Of a DNA stretch of 64,000 nt, positions 6,036 through 13,965 are shown in pieces. Location of the stretch: positions 310,001 through 374,000 of the forward strand of contig NZ_FNHL01000003.1 of NCBI RefSeq assembly GCF_900103715.1, given 5' to 3'. The DNA is from Halogranum gelatinilyticum. Its GTDB lineage: Archaea; Halobacteriota; Halobacteria; Halobacteriales; Haloferacaceae. Made by a program: the position numbers and the translations under genes. The notes beneath the pieces are model-generated. The model was not told the origin of the DNA and ran no database searches. It worked only from the letters and a program-made list of their open reading frames with translations. Every line of letters begins with the position of its first letter. The first letter of the stretch is position 1.

Positions 6036-7226
6036 ATGACTGACGACTCCGAGGCCAGCCGTCGGCTGTGGCTCGTCGCCATCTCGTGGTTCGTCGCCGT
6101 CGACGCGCTCGGCTTCCAGCTCCGCGGGGCACTGCTCCCCGAACTCCAACGGGAGTTCACCGTCTCGGAGAGCCTCCTCGGCCTCGTCGCACCTGCAGGC
6201 ACACTCGGCTTTCTCGTCGTGCTGCTCGTCTTCGGTGCCGTCGCCGGACGGGTCGACCTCCGGAAGACGATGCTGGCGGGTGTGGTCTCGGTCGGCCTCG
6301 CCATCGCGACAATCGGCTTCGCGCCGACGTTCGGGGTCTTCCTCGTCGCGCTGCTCGTCCGCGGGATTCTTACGGGGCTGTTCCGCGGCGTCGACCGCCC
6401 GGTGTTGAGTCACCTCTACCCTGACGCACGAGGCCGCGTGTTCAACCTCTACGACCTCGCGTGGGCCGCTGGTGCGAGTGCCGGGCCCGTGCTCGCAATC
6501 GTCGCGCTTCGCCTCGGCAACTGGCGGTACGCCTACGCACTGCTCGCGGTGAGCCTGATTCCGGTCGCGCTCATCATCCTCCGGCTGGACCTCGACGACA
6601 TCGCCGGCAACGAACGGCCGCTCCGTCGTGATGAGCTCGCGGCGCTCCTCCGGCGACCCGAGATTCTCGGTGCCGCCGCAGTGATGATGCTCTCGGGCGG
6701 CATCGAAGGCGGGTTGTTCACCTGGCTTCCCTACTACGCCACCCAGACGCTCCCACAGGACGTGGCGAGTCTCACCCTCTCGGTGTTCCTCGTGGCCTAC
6801 GTCCCCGCCCGCTTGCTCTACAGCCGACTCGCCGAGCGGGTGGGCTATCTCCCGCTGGTCATCACGCTGACGGCACTGGCGATCCCGGTCGCTGCAATCA
6901 CTTTCCGATATCTCGACGGATACGCGTTCGTCGCCGGCATCGCCGTCTTCGGCTTCCTCTGGGCAGGAGTGTTTCCGACGGTCGCCGCGTTCAGCATCGA
7001 AGCTGCCCCCGCCTACAGCGGCCCGGTCAACGCCGTCGCGACGGGCGCGACGTATCTCGGGACCGGACTCGTCCCGGTCGTCATGGGTGTCGTCGCCGAC
7101 GAGTTCGACATCGGCCTGTCGATGCAGCTCTTGACCGTCCTCGTCGTCGGTACCGTCCTCCTCCTGCTCGCGACGAAGTCGGCCACCGCAGCCGCACGTG
7201 CAGGGTCGACGAGGAGCGACGCCTGA
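6036..7226 (+). CDS. MFS transporter
   Basis: A 396-residue major-facilitator protein with about 12 hydrophobic segments. The loop 2-3 region VAGRVDLRKTML resembles the MFS G-x3-D-R motif, and a basic/acidic cytoplasmic loop near residue 190 (LDLDDIAGNERPLRRDE) separates the two halves. The substrate cannot be predicted. ATG 6036 begins MTDDSEASRRLW just before the first helix; the earlier in-frame start would add a short non-conserved-looking extension. Confidence 0.8.
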   Translation: MTDDSEASRRLWLVAISWFVAVDALGFQLRGALLPELQREFTVSESLLGLVAPAGTLGFLVVLLVFGAVAGRVDLRKTMLAGVVSVGLAIATIGFAPTFGVFLVALLVRGILTGLFRGVDRPVLSHLYPDARGRVFNLYDLAWAAGASAGPVLAIVALRLGNWRYAYALLAVSLIPVALIILRLDLDDIAGNERPLRRDELAALLRRPEILGAAAVMMLSGGIEGGLFTWLPYYATQTLPQDVASLTLSVFLVAYVPARLLYSRLAERVGYLPLVITLTALAIPVAAITFRYLDGYAFVAGIAVFGFLWAGVFPTVAAFSIEAAPAYSGPVNAVATGATYLGTGLVPVVMGVVADEFDIGLSMQLLTVLVVGTVLLLLATKSATAAARAGSTRSDA

Positions 7227-7270
7227 CTCCCCGACCGCAGGCTTATGCCGACGCCGTCCGACTCTCAGCT

Positions 7271-7984
7271 ATGTGCGGACGGTACACGCTGTTCACCCGA
7301 CAGGATGTCCTCGAAGACCGGTTCGACGCCCACGCCGCCGAGCCGATGGAGCCACGGTACAACTGCGCGCCGGGCCAGCGACTCCCGGTCGTCACGGGTG
7401 ACGACCCCGACACGATTCAGACGCTGAAGTGGGGACTCGTCCCGTCGTGGGCGGAGAGTGAGTCGGTCGGTAACAAACTCATCAACGCCCGGGCGGAGAC
7501 TGTCCGCGAGAAGCGGAGTTTCGCCGACGCGTACGAACAGCGGCGGTGCCTCGTCCTCGCCGACGGCTTCTACGAGTGGGTCGAAGAGAGCGGGAACAAA
7601 CAGCCCTACCGCGTCGCGTTCGCCGACGACCGCCCCTTCGCGATGGCCGGACTCTGGGAGCGGTGGACGCCGCCACAGAAACAGACCGGTCTCGCCGACT
7701 TCGGTGGCGGGGCGACGCCCGACAGAGACCCCGACCCCGTCGAGACGTTCACCGTCATCACGACCGAGCCGAACGACCTCATCTCGACGCTCCACCACCG
7801 GATGGCCGTCGTCCTCGACGAGAGCGAGGAGAAGGCGTGGCTCACGGGCGACGCCGACGAAGTCGAATCCCTGTTGGACCCGTACCCGGACGACGCAATG
7901 GAGACCTATCCGGTCTCGACGCGAGTTAACAGCCCGGCCAACGACGGCCCGGAACTCATCGAAGAAGTCGAATCGTCAGCGTAA
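7271..7984 (+). CDS. SOS response-associated peptidase (SRAP/HMCES/YedK)
   Basis: A 237-residue SRAP protein. It begins MCGRYTLF, so Cys2 is the catalytic residue after Met removal. NARAETV, GFYEW and HHRMAV supply the other conserved positions. Family members crosslink to abasic sites in single-stranded DNA through Cys2 and protect them. The start is fixed by the need for Cys at position 2. It is the last gene before the AT-rich par-recombinase module. Confidence 0.9.
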   Translation: MCGRYTLFTRQDVLEDRFDAHAAEPMEPRYNCAPGQRLPVVTGDDPDTIQTLKWGLVPSWAESESVGNKLINARAETVREKRSFADAYEQRRCLVLADGFYEWVEESGNKQPYRVAFADDRPFAMAGLWERWTPPQKQTGLADFGGGATPDRDPDPVETFTVITTEPNDLISTLHHRMAVVLDESEEKAWLTGDADEVESLLDPYPDDAMETYPVSTRVNSPANDGPELIEEVESSA

Positions 7985-8000
7985 GAGGCGAGAGCGTTCA

Positions 8001-8300
8001 GATTTTGCCGAAAACGTTGCTGTCGAGAGACACAGCCAGCGGCCGAGATTCCATATAGCGATATGTGGTTTGTGTGTCGGCCGGTCGACGGAGGGGAACA
8101 CTCACGTTATCAGATGAATGTCAAAAAATGGAGAAATGAGGGGTGTGCACGAGCTGAGTCGAAGCTCAGCAAAGAGGCCACGGACACTGCGGCTGGACAG
8201 TGCCGTTCGTATCGTGGCCCAACCTGTCTTCGGGACGGCTCGCCCTGGAATCGTTCGGAAACCCGGTTTGAACGCTGTGGACGGACTGGTCCGACAGACT
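8001..8300 (+). repeat. Left inverted copy of a diverged non-coding repeat
   Basis: The 385-base gap 7985-8369 has no gene I can support. It holds a sequence homologous to the reverse complement of 11660-12002. TTTTGCCGA (8003) matches TTTTGACCGA. ATTCCATATAGCG plus the following bases (8048-8080) match 25 of 33 positions. GGCCCAACCTGTCT (8216-8229) matches 13 of 14. The first two blocks keep the same spacing in both copies. The gap also contains a GCTGAG-TCGAAG-CTCAGC hairpin (8153-8170). The outer limit is approximate. Confidence 0.6.
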
Positions 8301-8355
8301 AACAGAGGACAACCCATCTCGACGACGTGACTCCGGGGGTAAAGGGCATCAGGAC

Positions 8356-8369
8356 TCCCCTCGAGGGGA
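8356..8369. terminator. Palindrome directly after the recombinase stop
   Basis: TCCCCTCGAGGGGA is a perfect 14-base palindrome abutting the recombinase stop codon. It may act in termination or mRNA protection, or as a recombinase-related site. No T-run follows. Confidence 0.3.
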
Positions 8370-9431
8370 TTACTCCAAAAGCGAGTAGATGTTGGCTTCG
8401 TAGGTCTCTCGGACCTTGTCCCCCCAGTTGTGGGTGTAGGTGTCGATGATGTCGTCGGCGACGTCGCCGCGAAGATACTTGACGATACCACGGTCACCCG
8501 TCCGGTCACGGAGATGCGTCGTGAAGAAGTGCCGGAAGTAGTGGGGAGTGACGTTCTCGCTCGCCCCGCCGCCGGTTCGGTACCAGCCCCGTTCGCGGGC
8601 GTGGGTCTCGACGATGTGACGGACAGCTTCGGGGTCGAGTCGTTCCCCCCAGCCTTCGGAGGTCCCGAGGAACAGCGGTTCGGCCGGGGAGACCGCATCG
8701 GGGCGAATCGCTAGCCAGCGGACGAGTACCCGCTTCAGCTCTGCGTCGATGGGTACGACCGTCGCACGTTTTCGTTTGTTCGACGCCGTTCGTTCTTCAC
8801 CGTTCGACGTCTCACCGAAGGAGGGCTCGGGTGAGACGAAGATCGAGTCGGGGCGTCCGTCGAGTTCGCCGCGAGAGCCGAGATCGTACGCCTCGTTCGC
8901 ATCGGAATCCGAGAGTGCGACGTCCCGAAGGTCGAGGTTACAGGCCTCACCCACACGCATTCCGGTCTTCAACAGGGTGACGACGACAGCACGATGAAGC
9001 GGGTGGGTGAGCTCCGCGACGAAGGTTCGCATCGTCGGGACGTCGATCTCCCGTCGAGTCGGATCCTTGTCGATTGTCTCGTCCATCTCTTCCATGACGA
9101 GCGTCATCGGGTTCGACTCGAAGACGCCGACCTGTGTCATATAGGCGTAGAAGCGGTGGAGGTAGGCCGCGTAGGTGGCGACCGTGCTCGGTTCGACGTC
9201 GCCGCGGAGGGTGTGAACCCACGCCATACAGTGCCGGTGGGTGGCATCCACCGGCTGAATCGACCGGCCGAAGGGGTTCTCGTCGGCGTCCGCGAGAAAC
9301 GACTCGAATCGGCGGAGGACCCGTTCGTACGACTGCCGCGTCCGTTCGGTCTTTCCGTGGAAGACGAGGTCCTGCAGAAAGTAGCCGACCGGGTCGTCGG
9401 GATCGTCGCCGGTGGTCGTCTCAGTTGCCAT
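8370..9431 (-). CDS. Tyrosine recombinase / integrase (XerC/D-like)
   Basis: A 353-residue tyrosine recombinase with an N-terminal SAM-like core-binding domain (about 12-115) and a C-terminal catalytic domain. Visible catalytic residues are Arg159 (TGMRVGEACNL), a Lys at 219-221 (NKRKRATVVPI), His297-x-x-Arg300 (HYFRHFF) and the nucleophile Tyr332 (DTYTH). The usual second His/Trp before the tyrosine (LGH) reads RGD (Asp323). It overlaps the DUF5805 gene by 11 bases, so the two are translated together. No flanking tRNA or classical att pair is visible. Confidence 0.85.
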   Translation of the reverse strand: MATETTTGDDPDDPVGYFLQDLVFHGKTERTRQSYERVLRRFESFLADADENPFGRSIQPVDATHRHCMAWVHTLRGDVEPSTVATYAAYLHRFYAYMTQVGVFESNPMTLVMEEMDETIDKDPTRREIDVPTMRTFVAELTHPLHRAVVVTLLKTGMRVGEACNLDLRDVALSDSDANEAYDLGSRGELDGRPDSIFVSPEPSFGETSNGEERTASNKRKRATVVPIDAELKRVLVRWLAIRPDAVSPAEPLFLGTSEGWGERLDPEAVRHIVETHARERGWYRTGGGASENVTPHYFRHFFTTHLRDRTGDRGIVKYLRGDVADDIIDTYTHNWGDKVRETYEANIYSLLE

Positions 9432-9810
9432 CGTTCACCAGCGTATACCCCCCGTGTCGGCCACTGTACCGAATCCGGTTCTCTCCTTGCAGCTCACCGA
9501 GCGCGTCGTCGAGTCGGTCTTCCAAGTCGTCGGCGAGCGCGTCGACAAGTTGGTCCCACGACATGAACTCGTTCGATTCGAGCGTCGAGAGGAGGCGTGT
9601 TTCGAGGCCGTGACCCCCAGGGTCTACGGGGTCAGAACCACCCTCCTCGTCACCGAGATCGAACCCCTTTCGACCGGCCTGCACCATCGTTCGTACGAAC
9701 TCGCTTTGGCTCATTCCGAGTTCGTCGGCGTGGTCGCGCCACTCGTCTTTTTGATACGTGGGGACGTACGTCCTGACAGCAGCCCGACTCGTGTCCTGGC
9801 TCTCGCCCAT
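9421..9810 (-). CDS. DUF5805 family DNA-binding-like protein
   Basis: A 129-residue protein. The N-terminal part (RTYVPTYQKDEW ... GMSQSEFVRTMVQAGRKGF) resembles a ribbon-helix-helix region. The C-terminal ~60 residues (LLSTLESNEFMSWDQLVDAL ... RIRYSGRHGGYTLVN) look like a winged helix. This arrangement matches haloarchaeal DUF5805 proteins encoded beside tyrosine recombinases. ATG at 9810 is chosen over 9834 because it leaves the conserved start intact. It is probably a regulator or accessory factor of the recombinase and could bind the palindrome at 9853-9876. Confidence 0.65.
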   Translation of the reverse strand: MGESQDTSRAAVRTYVPTYQKDEWRDHADELGMSQSEFVRTMVQAGRKGFDLGDEEGGSDPVDPGGHGLETRLLSTLESNEFMSWDQLVDALADDLEDRLDDALGELQGENRIRYSGRHGGYTLVNDGN

Positions 9811-9852
9811 GGACGAGGGTCGGAGGCCACCCACTTTACTGTGTCCCCATCC

Positions 9853-9876
9853 ATCCGGATAAACTCACTTATCCGG
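9853..9876. promoter_or_regulatory. Palindrome TCCGGATAA-N6-TTATCCGGA
   Basis: Perfect 9-bp arms with a 6-base spacer lie 43-66 bases upstream of the DUF5805 start. A near-identical half-site, TTCGGATAA, occurs at 9987-9995. This is a strong candidate operator for the DUF5805-recombinase unit, or a recombination/partition site. Confidence 0.55.
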
Positions 9877-9900
9877 AATCTCAAGACTGCTTGGTGGCGG

Positions 9901-9918
9901 AATTGTGGGAATACAATT
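9901..9918. repeat. Inverted repeat AATTGT-GGGAAT-ACAATT in AT-rich spacer
   Basis: Perfect 6-bp arms sit in the 289-base gene-free spacer 9811-10099 between the two minus-strand units. The spacer is clearly richer in A and T than its surroundings and holds no credible gene. Confidence 0.35.
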
Positions 9919-10099
9919 TCGTATTAGTCTTCTAAGTGCCCTGTAATTCAGCATAGAAAACCCAAGTTCCCACGTAGGTCTACTATTTCGGATAAGTAAA
10001 CACGGCCAGTTCCGTTGTCGCAGAGTTGCGAGTAGTGTGTCGACTCGGGAGTACCAATCGATTGGAAGAGAGAACCGAAACACGAGCAGTCGAGAGCGG

Positions 10100-10591
10100 C
10101 TACTCGGAGAAACTGAACTGGATGTTTTCGAGACCGAAGCCCAGCGACTTCGCGGCCGCGTCGTAATCCTCTGCGTGGGCAAGCCCCGTCCGGAGGATGA
10201 TCTCCAACGCATCCGTCTCTGAGAGGTTCTCGTCGTCGTACTGTTTGACGAGTTCCGACACCGCATCCTGGAGTTCGAACCGTGTCTCTTTCAGCAGCTG
10301 GAACTGCTTTTGCTGGCGGTCGTCGGTGACTTTCGAACGGGCCATCGCGTAGGGTAATCCGCCACGAGTTACCAGGTCGAGCGCGCCGGACTCGCTGGAA
10401 ACGGAGTCGTTGGCGTCAGTAGACCCGGTTTCGGTTTCGGCCGAGGAAGTTGCCTCCTCTGTCGACGTCGGCTCGGACGTGTCGTCCGACTCACTCTCTC
10501 CGTTCGAGACGGCAGGCGAGTCGGCGTTTTTGAACGGGCTCGCCGAGTAGTCGGGGTCGCTGCCAGAGGCGTACTTGTCGTCGCGGGCCAT
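10100..10591 (-). CDS. ParA-linked accessory protein (possible partition partner)
   Basis: A 163-residue protein with a low-complexity acidic Ser/Thr/Glu N-terminal half (1-75) and a helical C-terminal half (RSKVTDDRQQKQFQLLKETRFELQ order, ending ENIQFSFSE). Its ATG overlaps the ParA stop (TGATG), so it is translationally coupled. Position and size fit a ParB-like or adaptor partner of ParA. No ParB or recognisable HTH motif is visible, so the role is inferred from context. Confidence 0.6.
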   Translation of the reverse strand: MARDDKYASGSDPDYSASPFKNADSPAVSNGESESDDTSEPTSTEEATSSAETETGSTDANDSVSSESGALDLVTRGGLPYAMARSKVTDDRQQKQFQLLKETRFELQDAVSELVKQYDDENLSETDALEIILRTGLAHAEDYDAAAKSLGFGLENIQFSFSE

Positions 10592-11451
10592 CAGTGTGCG
10601 ACCTCCGGTTCGGCGTCGACTGCATCGAGCGGTTTCCCTTCGACGAGGTCTGCGACGCCGTTGAAGGAGTCGAGAACGTCGAGTTGGTAGTCACGCAGTT
10701 CGTACTCGTCGTGATAGCGGAAGACGCTCATCCCCTCTCCCCAGGCGTCGCTGATCTTGCTCCGTTTGTAGACGACGAAGGGCGTGATGAGCCGGTCGCT
10801 GGCTTCGAGTTCCGCGAACACCTCCTGTTGCTTGTTTGTCTGGCGTTTGCGGACGCGGTTGGGGACGATGCCGAGAATCGAAAAGGAGACGTCGACACCG
10901 GGAATCCGGTCGAAACCACGCTCCATGGCGGCGAGTTCCTCTTCCAGTCCGCCGATGGCGGCGATTCCTTTGTCGGTCATCTCGGCGGGAGCGACCACGT
11001 TCTGCGTGGCGACCATCGCGTTCGAGACGAGCGTTCCCGTCGTCGCCGGTGGGTCGACGAGGACGTAATCGTACCGTTCGGTGAGATCGGCCATCTCGTG
11101 GTGGAGCAGCCAATGCTTGCTCCCAGAGTCGAGACCGTCGGCGGCTTCGACCTTCGACTCGATGTTTGCGAGGTCGTTGTGCGTCGGAATCAGGTCGAAC
11201 TCTTGGGTCTCGATGACGATCTCGTGCAGACGCTGTTCGTCGTCGACGAGGAGTTCGGCGATGTTCTCGTAGTCGTCGCGGCTGGCCCACTCGCCGTAAC
11301 CCATGTGGTCGGTCATCCCGGCGTTCTGCGGGTCGAAGTCGATTGCGAGCACGTCGTATCCGCGGCGAGAGAGCGCGGCAGCGGTGTTGACGGTGAACGT
11401 CGTCTTCCCCGTCCCCCCCGCTTCCGTCCAAAAGGTAACTGCCTTCGGCAT
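10591..11451 (-). CDS. parA: ParA family partition ATPase
   Basis: A 286-residue ParA/Soj-like ATPase. The P-loop reads TEAGGTGKTT, the switch region is IDFDPQNAG, and Walker B is YVLVDPPATTG. Classical ParA has KGGxGKT; here the signature lysine position is Ala while the second P-loop lysine is kept. Family members form dimers on DNA and segregate plasmids or chromosomes. A palindrome (11455-11467) lies between a TATA-like element (CTTTATTG, about 25 bases upstream) and the ATG, as expected for autoregulation. Confidence 0.85.
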   Translation of the reverse strand: MPKAVTFWTEAGGTGKTTFTVNTAAALSRRGYDVLAIDFDPQNAGMTDHMGYGEWASRDDYENIAELLVDDEQRLHEIVIETQEFDLIPTHNDLANIESKVEAADGLDSGSKHWLLHHEMADLTERYDYVLVDPPATTGTLVSNAMVATQNVVAPAEMTDKGIAAIGGLEEELAAMERGFDRIPGVDVSFSILGIVPNRVRKRQTNKQQEVFAELEASDRLITPFVVYKRSKISDAWGEGMSVFRYHDEYELRDYQLDVLDSFNGVADLVEGKPLDAVDAEPEVAH

Positions 11452-11454
11452 GGT

Positions 11455-11467
11455 TCACCCTGGGTGA
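11455..11467. promoter_or_regulatory. parA operator-like palindrome TCACCC-T-GGGTGA
   Basis: Perfect 6-bp arms around one base end four bases before the parA start codon and just downstream of a TATA-like box. A protein bound here would block transcription start. Confidence 0.45.
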
Positions 11468-11585
11468 CACTCCGCAATAAAGACACGTCAGACGTACGGT
11501 AGACACAGCCACCGAACAGGCACACTAACAGATGAACGACCCACACAAAGAACAAATACACGAGTGTGCCAGACAACTAAATGTG

Positions 11586-11615
11586 TGTCTAAATATATAG
11601 ATAGTTACTTAGACA
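11586..11615. repeat. Inverted repeat TGTCTAA-N16-TTAGACA
   Basis: Perfect 7-bp arms (11586-11592, 11609-11615) flank an AT-only-like core containing ATATATAG. It lies in the gene-free upstream region of parA, which also has several scattered AGACA/TGTGTC words. It could be a partition or replication-associated site. Confidence 0.35.
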
Positions 11616-11659
11616 AACTTTCTATATGATGAGTGGACAGTCGTAGTGGAACACGCCAA

Positions 11660-12002
11660 TCAAGCCACGAACGTCCAGTCCAGAGTGGCTCGGAGGCTTC
11701 GACGGCTGTGGCAGACAGGATGGGCCGTAGGATCGCTGCGTCCAACGCAAAGGGCTGGGAAACCGAACCTGGGTGGAAGGCCACGGATTCCGTCAGTCGG
11801 TGAGAGTTCGCTGTGACGGCTTCGTGTGCAGACAACGGCGAACGCTCACCCCTCGAATCACCCGAAGAAACGGTACACCTCCAACCGGTTGATCGAGTGA
11901 GCAACATTGAGGGCGGCCGCCCACCAACACGTAAATCTCATGCCGCTATATCGAATGCTGCGGCTACAGAACTAAAATTGGTCCGTGGATAATCGGTCAA
12001 AA
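11660..12002 (-). repeat. Right inverted copy of the diverged non-coding repeat
   Basis: The 619-base gap 11452-12070 has no gene I can support; an open frame at 11605-11907 lacks haloarchaeal codon bias and acidity. On the minus strand it matches the plus strand of 8001-8300 in ordered blocks: TTTTGACCGA (12002-11993), ATTCGATATAGCG plus following bases (11956-11924), and GGCCCATCCTGTCT (11726-11713). The two copies face each other across the par-recombinase module. Confidence 0.6.
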
Positions 12003-12070
12003 CCCGTTCGTCGGTCCCCGTACCCGGCACTGGCGGGAGCTATAACCTCATCTGTGTCGTCGTCTCTCGT

Positions 12071-12577
12071 GTGTCGGGATACGAGATCGTCGAAGGATAC
12101 AGGCCGGGTGTCGTCGGGAGGCTGACCGAGTTGCACGCGACGTACTACGGCAACCGCTGGGAACTCGGAACTCGCTTCGAGGTAGACATCGGAACGGGAA
12201 TCGCGGCGTTCGTCGGCCGGTACGACCCGTCACGTGACGGGCTGTGGACCGTCGTCGACGACGGGCGAGTGATGGGTGGCATCGTCATCGACAGCCGGAC
12301 CGACAGGGAGAACGTGGCTCAACTGCGGTATTTCATCCTCGACCCTGCACTTCACGGTCGGGGCTTCGGGCGCGGTCTCCTCGACGAGGCGATGGCCTTC
12401 TGTCGGGAGCAGGGATTCGACGAAGTGTTTCTCTGGACCGTCGACGAACTGGAAGCCGCAATCCACCTGTACCGCGACGCTGGCTTCGAAGCAACCGACG
12501 AGGTCGACCCCCACACAGAGTGGCGGACGACGGTTCCGTACCGACGGTTCGTGTGTGACCTGTCGGCCGTAGAGTGA
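12071..12577 (+). CDS. GNAT family N-acetyltransferase
   Basis: A 168-residue GNAT protein. The acetyl-CoA loop is HGRGFGRGLLDEA, preceded by the beta-strand LRYFILDPAL, and followed by IHLYRDAGFEATDEV, a typical GNAT end. The start is GTG; a TATA-like TATAACC at 12041 gives leaderless spacing. The substrate is unknown. The TFB-like or transport genes next to some GNATs are absent here. Confidence 0.8.
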   Translation: MSGYEIVEGYRPGVVGRLTELHATYYGNRWELGTRFEVDIGTGIAAFVGRYDPSRDGLWTVVDDGRVMGGIVIDSRTDRENVAQLRYFILDPALHGRGFGRGLLDEAMAFCREQGFDEVFLWTVDELEAAIHLYRDAGFEATDEVDPHTEWRTTVPYRRFVCDLSAVE

Positions 12578-12636
12578 GTTCGAGTGCCAGCCAGCCGATA
12601 GTAGTCTTTAATAATTGAGTGCGCCTGAGTTAATAC

Positions 12637-13065
12637 ATGACTGTCGTCAGCGTCTCCATGCCCGAAGAGCTGCTCAACCGTATCGACGAGTTCGCCGACG
12701 AGCACGGCTACACGGGGCGAAGTGAAGTGCTCCGAGAGGCGAGCCGAAACCTGCTCGGCGAGTTCGAGGACAAGCGGTTAGAGGACCGCGAGCTGATGGG
12801 CGTGGTGACCGTCCTCTTCGACTTCGAGACGACGAGCGTCGAGGAGCGGATGATGCGGCTCCGACACGAACACGAAGACCTCGTCGCCTCGAACTTCCAC
12901 AGCCACGTCGGCCACCACTACTGTATGGAACTGTTCGTCCTCGAAGGGTCGCTTGAGGAGATTTCGACGTTCGTCGGGAAGCTCCGGGCGACGAAAGACA
13001 CCCTGACCATCGACTACTCGGTCATTCCGGTCGACGACTTCGGACCGTTCAGCACGAGCGAATAA
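12637..13065 (+). CDS. nikR: NikR-like ribbon-helix-helix metalloregulator
   Basis: A 142-residue CopG/NikR-type repressor. The N-terminus ([20 protein letters not shown] ... [13 protein letters not shown]) is the ribbon-helix-helix. The C-terminal ACT-like domain contains [14 protein letters not shown], whose His and Cys residues match the nickel site of NikR. In the known family, nickel binding allows repression of nickel uptake genes. No nickel transporter is adjacent. A TATA-like CTTTAATAA (12606-12614) and a repeated TTAATA precede the ATG. Confidence 0.8.
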
Positions 13066-13965
13066 TCAGACCTGCAGGGCAGTCTCCAGTTCTTGCTCCG
13101 TGAGGAGTTCCTTCACCAGACCGGTCGGGCCGTCGGCCTCCGTCGGATTCTCCATCAGCACCGTCTCGCTCGGGAAGAGATGCTCGCCGAGGACGAGCCC
13201 GTAGTCGCGGGCCGTCGACCCAGTCACCGTCAGATAGACGCCGAGACCGGCGTCGGCGATGGCTGCCTCCTCTTCGGCGTCATCGGCCGACGGATAGGTG
13301 AACTCGAGATTCTCGAGCGCGTCGGTGCCGAGGACCGCCTCGACGAGTCGCTCGTAGCGCGGCGAGATACAGAGGTCGCCCTCGTAGCTGGTCACGAACT
13401 CGCGGTCGAGCTCCGCACCGGCCGGGAGGAGTTCGGGTTTCGCCATCAACGTGTGGTAGACCGTGTCACCGAGACCGGTGACGACGCGGACGTCGGACTC
13501 CCGCGGGTCGATGCGGGCGTTGACGTCGGCGAGACTGTCCAGTCCCTCGGGTCGTAGCGAGACGACCTCTTCGAGGACGAGGTCGGCACTGTCGAAGCCG
13601 AGCGCGAACTCGTGGGTCCGAAGCGACCGGAACGGTTCCTCGCGGCCGACGAGCCGAACGTCCACGTCGTCGGTCTCGATGGTGACGCTGTCGAAGACGA
13701 TGCGGCGGGGTTTGCCGTCGCGGTCGTCACGGAGGAGGGTGTATTCGGGTGCCGTCGGGTCGTCGAGGTCGCTGTAGTCGGCGAGCCGTTCGTACACGTC
13801 GCGGTCTGGCTGCTGGGACCCCTTGGTGACGGCTTTCTCGTACCGAAGCGTCGAGGAGACGTCGTCGGCGAGTGCATGGACGCCCGCGCCGGAGGCGAGA
13901 CGTTCGAGCACTGCTTCGAGGGGGCGCCCCTTCCGGGGCACGGCAACGCAGACCGTTTCTGTCAT
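13066..13965 (-). CDS. HisG-like protein of unknown function
   Basis: A 299-residue protein beginning CVAVPRKGRPLEAVLERL, like the start of ATP phosphoribosyltransferase (HisG: A-x-P-x-KGR). A middle part (FALGFDSADLVLEEVVSLRPEG; VVTGLGDTVYHTLM) resembles periplasmic-binding-type folds. The remaining sequence does not match HisG well, and no his gene is nearby. I treat it as a paralogue with unknown activity. ATG 13965 is chosen because sequence upstream in frame is only the reverse of the DUF502 gene. Confidence 0.5.
   Translation of the reverse strand: MTETVCVAVPRKGRPLEAVLERLASGAGVHALADDVSSTLRYEKAVTKGSQQPDRDVYERLADYSDLDDPTAPEYTLLRDDRDGKPRRIVFDSVTIETDDVDVRLVGREEPFRSLRTHEFALGFDSADLVLEEVVSLRPEGLDSLADVNARIDPRESDVRVVTGLGDTVYHTLMAKPELLPAGAELDREFVTSYEGDLCISPRYERLVEAVLGTDALENLEFTYPSADDAEEEAAIADAGLGVYLTVTGSTARDYGLVLGEHLFPSETVLMENPTEADGPTGLVKELLTEQELETALQV

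Follow-up and report, generated by a model that had tools for sequence, protein, structure and literature searches.

A probable self-inverting and exchangeable Xer-type recombinase cassette bounded by dif-like sites in haloarchaeal chromosomes

The stretch of DNA analysed here (the window; 64,000 nucleotides of haloarchaeal chromosomal DNA from Halogranum gelatinilyticum, contig NZ_FNHL01000003.1, positions 310,001 to 374,000) carries a segment of about 4 kilobases (kb) in which the genes for a Xer-like tyrosine recombinase, a DUF5805 protein, a ParA-type ATPase and the partner of ParA lie between two inward-pointing copies of a 26-base-pair (bp) site. Comparison with other haloarchaeal genomes indicates that the segment is probably a Xer cassette with dif-like sites that inverts itself and can be exchanged between genomes. 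Positions are those of the window; in the labels used for genomes (G), contigs (C) and loci (L), G000 is the window's genome and C3 its contig. The segment is organized as follows:

8048..8073, plus strand: left 26-bp site, ATTCCATATAGCGATATGTGGTTTGT, pointing inward, about 300 bp past the recombinase stop codon
8370..9431, minus strand: Xer-like tyrosine recombinase of 353 amino acids (Phage_integrase, PF00589), universal in haloarchaea
9421..9834, minus strand: DUF5805 protein, the obligatory partner of the recombinase
9835..10099, no strand: AT-rich non-coding spacer upstream of the DUF5805 gene
10100..10591, minus strand: ParA partner of 163 amino acids, in the cassette only in the window's genus
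10591..11451, minus strand: plasmid-like ParA-type ATPase, in the cassette only in the window's genus
11452..11930, no strand: AT-rich non-coding stretch inside the cassette, adjoining the right site
11931..11956, minus strand: right 26-bp site, ATTCGATATAGCGGCATGAGATTTAC, pointing inward, about 480 bp ahead of the ParA start codon

The initial annotation had described the two ends as diverged inverted copies of one non-coding sequence of some 300 bases, both directed inward and enclosing only these four genes. The orientation and the gene content are as described, and so is the resemblance between 8048-8080 on the plus strand and 11956-11924 on the minus strand, which are 76% complementary over 33 nucleotides and form the longest inverted repeat in the 5 kb of 7500-12500. 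When the two intergenic regions are aligned locally, the same block comes out best (score 28, against a mean of 19.3 in shuffled sequences, with 2 of 500 shuffles scoring as high). The wider series of ordered blocks did not survive these controls. The aligned part of the two end regions spans only about 41 bases, and once the core block was masked the best remaining match, GGCCCAACCTGTCT (13 of 14 positions), was equalled by 26 of 500 shuffles. The second block put forward as common to both ends, TTTTG(A)CCGA, was looked for in the form TTTTG(N)CCGA within 60 nucleotides outside the 171 equivalent sites of other genomes and was present at none of them. Homology over ends as long as about 300 bp was therefore rejected; the real feature is a short site, with about 30 bases truly alike, corresponding to one 26-bp site at each end. 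No credible Rfam match to a structured RNA was found in 7000-13000, the region that includes the cassette ends.

Aligned instances of the site define a sharply bounded 26-bp consensus, ATTCGATATAGCGRYATATGATTTAY, beyond which there is almost no conservation except, at recombinase loci, for a small number of bases toward the inside. A degenerate pattern allowing at most one mismatch was present in 207 of 293 haloarchaeal genomes, and the reversed control pattern in none; an exact scan of 84,980 species genomes, with one genome per species, returned 64 matches, all of them haloarchaeal. The left arm of the site, ATTCGATATA, is identical at 9 of 10 positions to the dif site of Pyrococcus abyssi, ATTGGATATA (taken from an oligonucleotide in PMC2958812), and the middle holds an ATATA/TATAT dyad. 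Compared with the 28-bp layout of dif, in which 11-bp imperfect inverted arms flank a 6-bp spacer, 26-29 bp are conserved here and the outer right arm is not symmetric. Ten sites occur in the window's genome at two mismatches or fewer. Single sites in that genome adjoin other tyrosine integrases (C7:80915, L067; C8:26931, L068), and mobile elements may use or carry the site. A viral origin of the site or of the recombinase was rejected, as the site had no match in viral contigs and the recombinase had no homologue in the phage collection. Neither the 26-bp site nor DUF5805 turned up in the literature searched.

The inward arrangement recurs at almost every recombinase locus examined. In 85 loci drawn from many genera, the site nearest upstream was on the plus strand, and thus inward, in 75 of 76 cases, and the nearest downstream site was on the minus strand, likewise inward, in all 81, usually 7-170 bp past the end of the recombinase match. 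An inward pair is likewise present at each of another 8 loci, among them those of the two other genomes in the window's genus, and at the thresholds used the recombinase loci of G042 and G094 have no site. The control core gene priL had no site in 30 loci, and the reversed sequence also gave none. The inward pair is almost universal among these 93 further loci, far beyond chance. Sites at the recombinase locus also form a distinct subtype, with A at position 10 and G at position 29, from which sites at the RIO2 gene (see below) differ in lacking both. The motif does occur elsewhere, as a dispersed intergenic repeat would, but its near-obligatory pairing at the recombinase locus, the A10/G29 subtype and its absence from the 30 control loci associate the pair with this module, which the dispersed-repeat explanation foreseen in the initial annotation denied. 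The GC content of the cassette is below that of its flanks in 73 of 74 comparisons.

All 97 good haloarchaeal genomes contain the recombinase, almost always as a single copy, and at all 93 loci compared the DUF5805 gene is its immediate upstream neighbour and has the same strand; together they are a universal haloarchaeal core pair. Residues R159, K219, H297, R300 and Y332 are invariant in 94 recombinase sequences, and the structural model of the protein (mean pLDDT, the predicted local distance difference test score, of 85) matches XerA and other tyrosine recombinases. Chain 14 of PDB entry 9i5v, labelled RaiA, matches tyrosine recombinases over both domains, and its label looks wrong. The recombinase reaches 98 bits with NF040815, the model of the archaeal XerA family, where the cut-off is 220, and no gene of the window's genome passes that cut-off. 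The model of the DUF5805 protein has no significant fold match in the PDB; its two short helices, with further helices and a beta wing after them, are read as a ribbon-helix-helix plus a winged helix, and the protein is probably a DNA-binding helper. A plasmid home for the recombinase was rejected, as only two records, both of megaplasmid scale, were found. The plasmid-labelled record CP031304.1 (L363; Natrinema thermotolerans plasmid unnamed6, 987 kb) holds the core recombinase cassette together with dph2 and the anchor gene introduced below, and may be part of the chromosome.

ParA and its partner lie inside the cassette in 3 of 3 genomes of the window's genus and are absent from the other loci examined, and plasmid relatives are about 40% identical. 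This restriction to one genus, with relatives on plasmids, identifies the two genes as cargo, which would have been gained in this genus, perhaps from a plasmid. ParA was accordingly discarded as a defining part of the module. The earlier suggestion that a mobile end was duplicated to build a segregation module is not supported, given the same distribution and the nature of the ends, which are two copies of a 26-bp site of the recombination type and not long duplications.

The orientation of the cassette can be read from the genes that lie outside the sites:

7271..7984, plus strand: SRAP gene on the left flank, a flank conserved in the genus and in g11
12071..12577, plus strand: GNAT acetyltransferase gene on the right flank
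12637..13065, plus strand: NikR-type regulator gene on the right flank, conserved in the genus
13066..13965, minus strand: anchor gene of 299 amino acids, from which cassette orientation was read in 45 genomes

At locus L361 (G005) the site pair encloses the SRAP gene, which in the window's genus belongs to the flank, so the contents of the cassette change.

When the outer flanks of all genomes were compared with one another, 267 genome pairs, which are not independent, matched on the same side and the same strand (UU+/DD+), and 194 matched on swapped sides and opposite strands (UD-/DU-), as expected from inversion of the cassette alone. The anchor gene lies on the upstream side in 25 of the 45 genomes and on the downstream side in 20, always directed toward the cassette and with no other state, and its side changes by at least six switches on the recombinase tree. 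Clean inversions, in which both flanks are collinear, separate G136 from G089, G106 from G063 and G186 from G092. Homology on one side breaks off 36 and 92 bp from the site (G106/G063) or 58 and 60 bp from it (G186/G092); on the other side it resumes about 100 bp to 3 kb past the site, or past the outermost site. The inverted cassettes of G136/G089 and G186/G092 are about as similar to each other as their flanks are, in agreement with inversion in place. Past inversion close to the sites is thus shown, and as in an inverton, inverted sites flank a segment that occurs in both orientations between the same flanks, when species are compared and also inside a single genus.

The locus has also seen divergent alleles take one another's place. 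The anchor genes of genus g44 cluster in a single tight clade, but its recombinases split into two deep groups that are about 70% identical in DNA; G208 and G144, with a flank that is 87.6% identical, carry different recombinases in opposite orientations. Beside the working copy, G144 (L214) and G158 (L324) each retain a frameshifted recombinase of the other group with its DUF5805 region, and these two loci are snapshots of cassette replacement. The frameshifted copies have the opposite orientation relative to the reading from the anchor side. In G163 and G092 the sites are nested, with extra DNA between them. The idea of a compact mobile or invertible element, advanced at the outset, is supported by this inversion or replacement of the segment between related genomes that are collinear on both flanks.

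Tyrosine recombinases need matching bases at the crossover. In the site pairs of the recombinase locus, agreement at central bases 11-14 exceeds expectation (z of 5.0 overall, and of 3.5 when sites were shuffled within families, p 0.0005). No agreement within pairs was seen in the arms of these sites, the centres of RIO2 site pairs are not matched, and no centre bases are common to the recombinase and RIO2 sites of one genome. Matched spacers have been reported for the dif modules of Acinetobacter (PMC13141974), and the inversely oriented sites with matched centres found here correspond to that arrangement; a Xer enzyme presumably acts on them.

Inward pairs of the same motif also bracket other genes. 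The gene for a RIO2-type kinase (G000 C1:630370-631281; L261 and L325-L356 in other genomes) has both sites of an inward pair in 32 of 36 loci, the upstream one often 56-59 bp ahead of the start codon, and 290 collinear flank comparisons (216 and 74) revealed no flip of this segment. Outside the recombinase and RIO2 loci, 33 pairs of neighbouring sites lie within 5 kb, of which 28 face inward, and the genes enclosed include NifU/D5783, a glyoxalase and a zinc-ribbon gene, among others. NifU/D5783 (G000 C1:175479-176191, L059, L365; relatives L366-L393) exists with and without sites in a similar gene order, and such pairs therefore need not be mobile cassettes. Inward pairs appear and disappear around this gene and beside it: a glyoxalase gene lies between a pair in G000 and G001, and G002 has a pair without a glyoxalase match. 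The zinc-ribbon gene, of 78 amino acids (G000 C2:356292-356945, L065), has a degenerate inward pair and lies between an alcohol dehydrogenase gene and gcvP. In families f9 and f11, which have divergent recombinases (G045 C116, G071 C100, G058 C37, G043 C10), the RIO2 and recombinase genes are about 1 to 18 kb apart, perhaps as an ancestral linkage.

The 4-kb segment would then be the version, in this genus, of a cassette present in nearly all haloarchaea, which couples a Xer-type recombinase and a DUF5805 helper and is bounded by two inward copies of what would be the recombinase's own dif-like site. The recombinase would bind the arms of both sites, DUF5805 may assist in assembling the synapse, and strand exchange would take place in the central GC-containing bases. 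Recombination between the inverted sites of one locus would flip the cassette, including the recombinase gene, and account for the inversions observed. A second DNA with such a cassette could be inserted or exchanged, so that alleles are replaced at the same place, as they have been. We infer that this recombinase acts on these sites with the help of DUF5805, and that incoming DNA is exchanged by the same reaction; the general recombinase of the cell appears to flip and exchange its own gene.

Several observations weigh against a self-inverting, exchangeable cassette. The agreement of bases 11-14 weakens when sites are shuffled within genera (z 1.6, p 0.07), the limits of that block were set once the data had been seen (for the spacer block 10-15, p is 0.02 within families), and the window's own pair differs at position 14. 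In the alignment of the 94 recombinases, the position of the catalytic His/Trp of Xer enzymes is occupied by an invariant Asp, D323. Every inversion lies between species and none within a population, one genome per species having been compared. In g44, a single-clade origin of the recombinases is not rejected by the approximately unbiased (AU) test (p 0.385), and horizontal transfer in this genus was therefore dropped as a conclusion from the recombinase tree alone; the change of orientation there is partly explicable by differential loss in a composite cassette, of which G144 and G158 hold remnants. An old double cassette with differential loss, beside horizontal replacement, is thus possible in g44. 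Lastly, the inward pairs around RIO2, NifU and other genes that were not seen to invert imply that the site may have another role.

One such role would be that of a binding site for a regulator or chromosome-organizing protein that brackets transcription units, with the recombinase locus as one target among several and the inversions arising from other processes. The regular bracketing of RIO2, with its short distance to the start codon and no flips, and of NifU/D5783, whose gene order is similar with or without sites, would suit this explanation, which leaves unexplained the breakpoints near the sites, the pair-matched centres found only at the recombinase locus and the A10/G29 subtype there; we regard it as improbable. 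Less easily set aside, if still unlikely, is a former transposon or integrative element with the 26-bp sites as its terminal inverted repeats, mainly inserted horizontally at the same spot in either orientation and not inverted in place. Replacement by divergent alleles, the remnants of old copies, the extra cassettes between nested sites in G163 and G092 and the low GC content all agree with such an element. Its near-universal presence in single copy, the lack of a match in phage or viral collections, and the inverted cassettes of G136/G089 and G186/G092, about as similar as their flanks, do not. A DDE transposon or insertion sequence carries a transposase between its terminal inverted repeats; the enzyme enclosed here is a tyrosine recombinase.

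The sites may also serve as the haloarchaeal dif in the resolution of chromosome dimers. The stronger claim, that this is what they are and that the inverted pair is a by-product of duplication, is about as doubtful as the transposon. It draws on a universal core Xer-like gene and a dif-like left arm in a group whose dif is not yet identified (PMC7776575), and on the failure of every other gene of the window's genome to reach the XerA cut-off. The recombinase itself falls well below that cut-off, and in place of the one site per chromosome, in the terminus region, of a Xer/dif system there are two inverted copies at the gene and several elsewhere; the single conserved chromosomal Xer-type recombinase of such a system is present. 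A broader and slightly more tentative proposal, which we also consider unlikely, is that the paired sites are the missing haloarchaeal dif, that the universal Xer recombinase maintains and renews its core gene by flipping and exchanging the cassette in which it lies, and that the related pairs around RIO2, NifU and other core genes form a genome-wide network worked by the same machinery.

The probable Xer cassette shares features with several described systems. Like archaeal XerA/dif of Pyrococcus abyssi (PMC2958812), it involves a core chromosomal tyrosine recombinase whose nearest folds include XerA, and a left arm that follows dif. Unlike that system, it has a recombinase below the family cut-off with an invariant Asp in place of His/Trp, a right arm unlike dif, two inverted sites around the gene with others in the genome, and an obligatory DUF5805 partner. 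The invertible region ORF34-ORF35-ORF36 of the haloarchaeal virus phiCh1 (PMC4284463) likewise has a recombinase gene within the inverting segment, but it is viral and switches tail-fibre ends, whereas here a core chromosomal gene is involved and the flank genes were not seen to be altered by the flip. The plasmid dif modules of Acinetobacter, or pdif (PMC13141974), are also units bounded by inversely oriented Xer sites; there, however, plasmid cargo is moved by a host XerCD encoded elsewhere, and here the recombinase itself is the cargo of a near-universal chromosomal cassette. The SNJ2 integrase, which works with helper proteins (PMC8371274), belongs to mobile elements and viruses, unlike a core gene that has inverted sites of its own on either side.

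Dimer resolution in haloarchaea and the existence of a dif site are regarded as an open question, and for Haloferax volcanii a review gives 12 XerC/D-like genes, four of which were deleted with viability kept, and no known site (PMC7776575). One such gene now proves to be universal, and nearly all genomes examined have a precise candidate site next to it; the question thus becomes directly testable in H. volcanii. A core chromosomal gene inside its own invertible and replaceable segment is unusual, and the cassette provides a natural archive in which site-specific inversion and the exchange of alleles can be followed through deep time in archaea.

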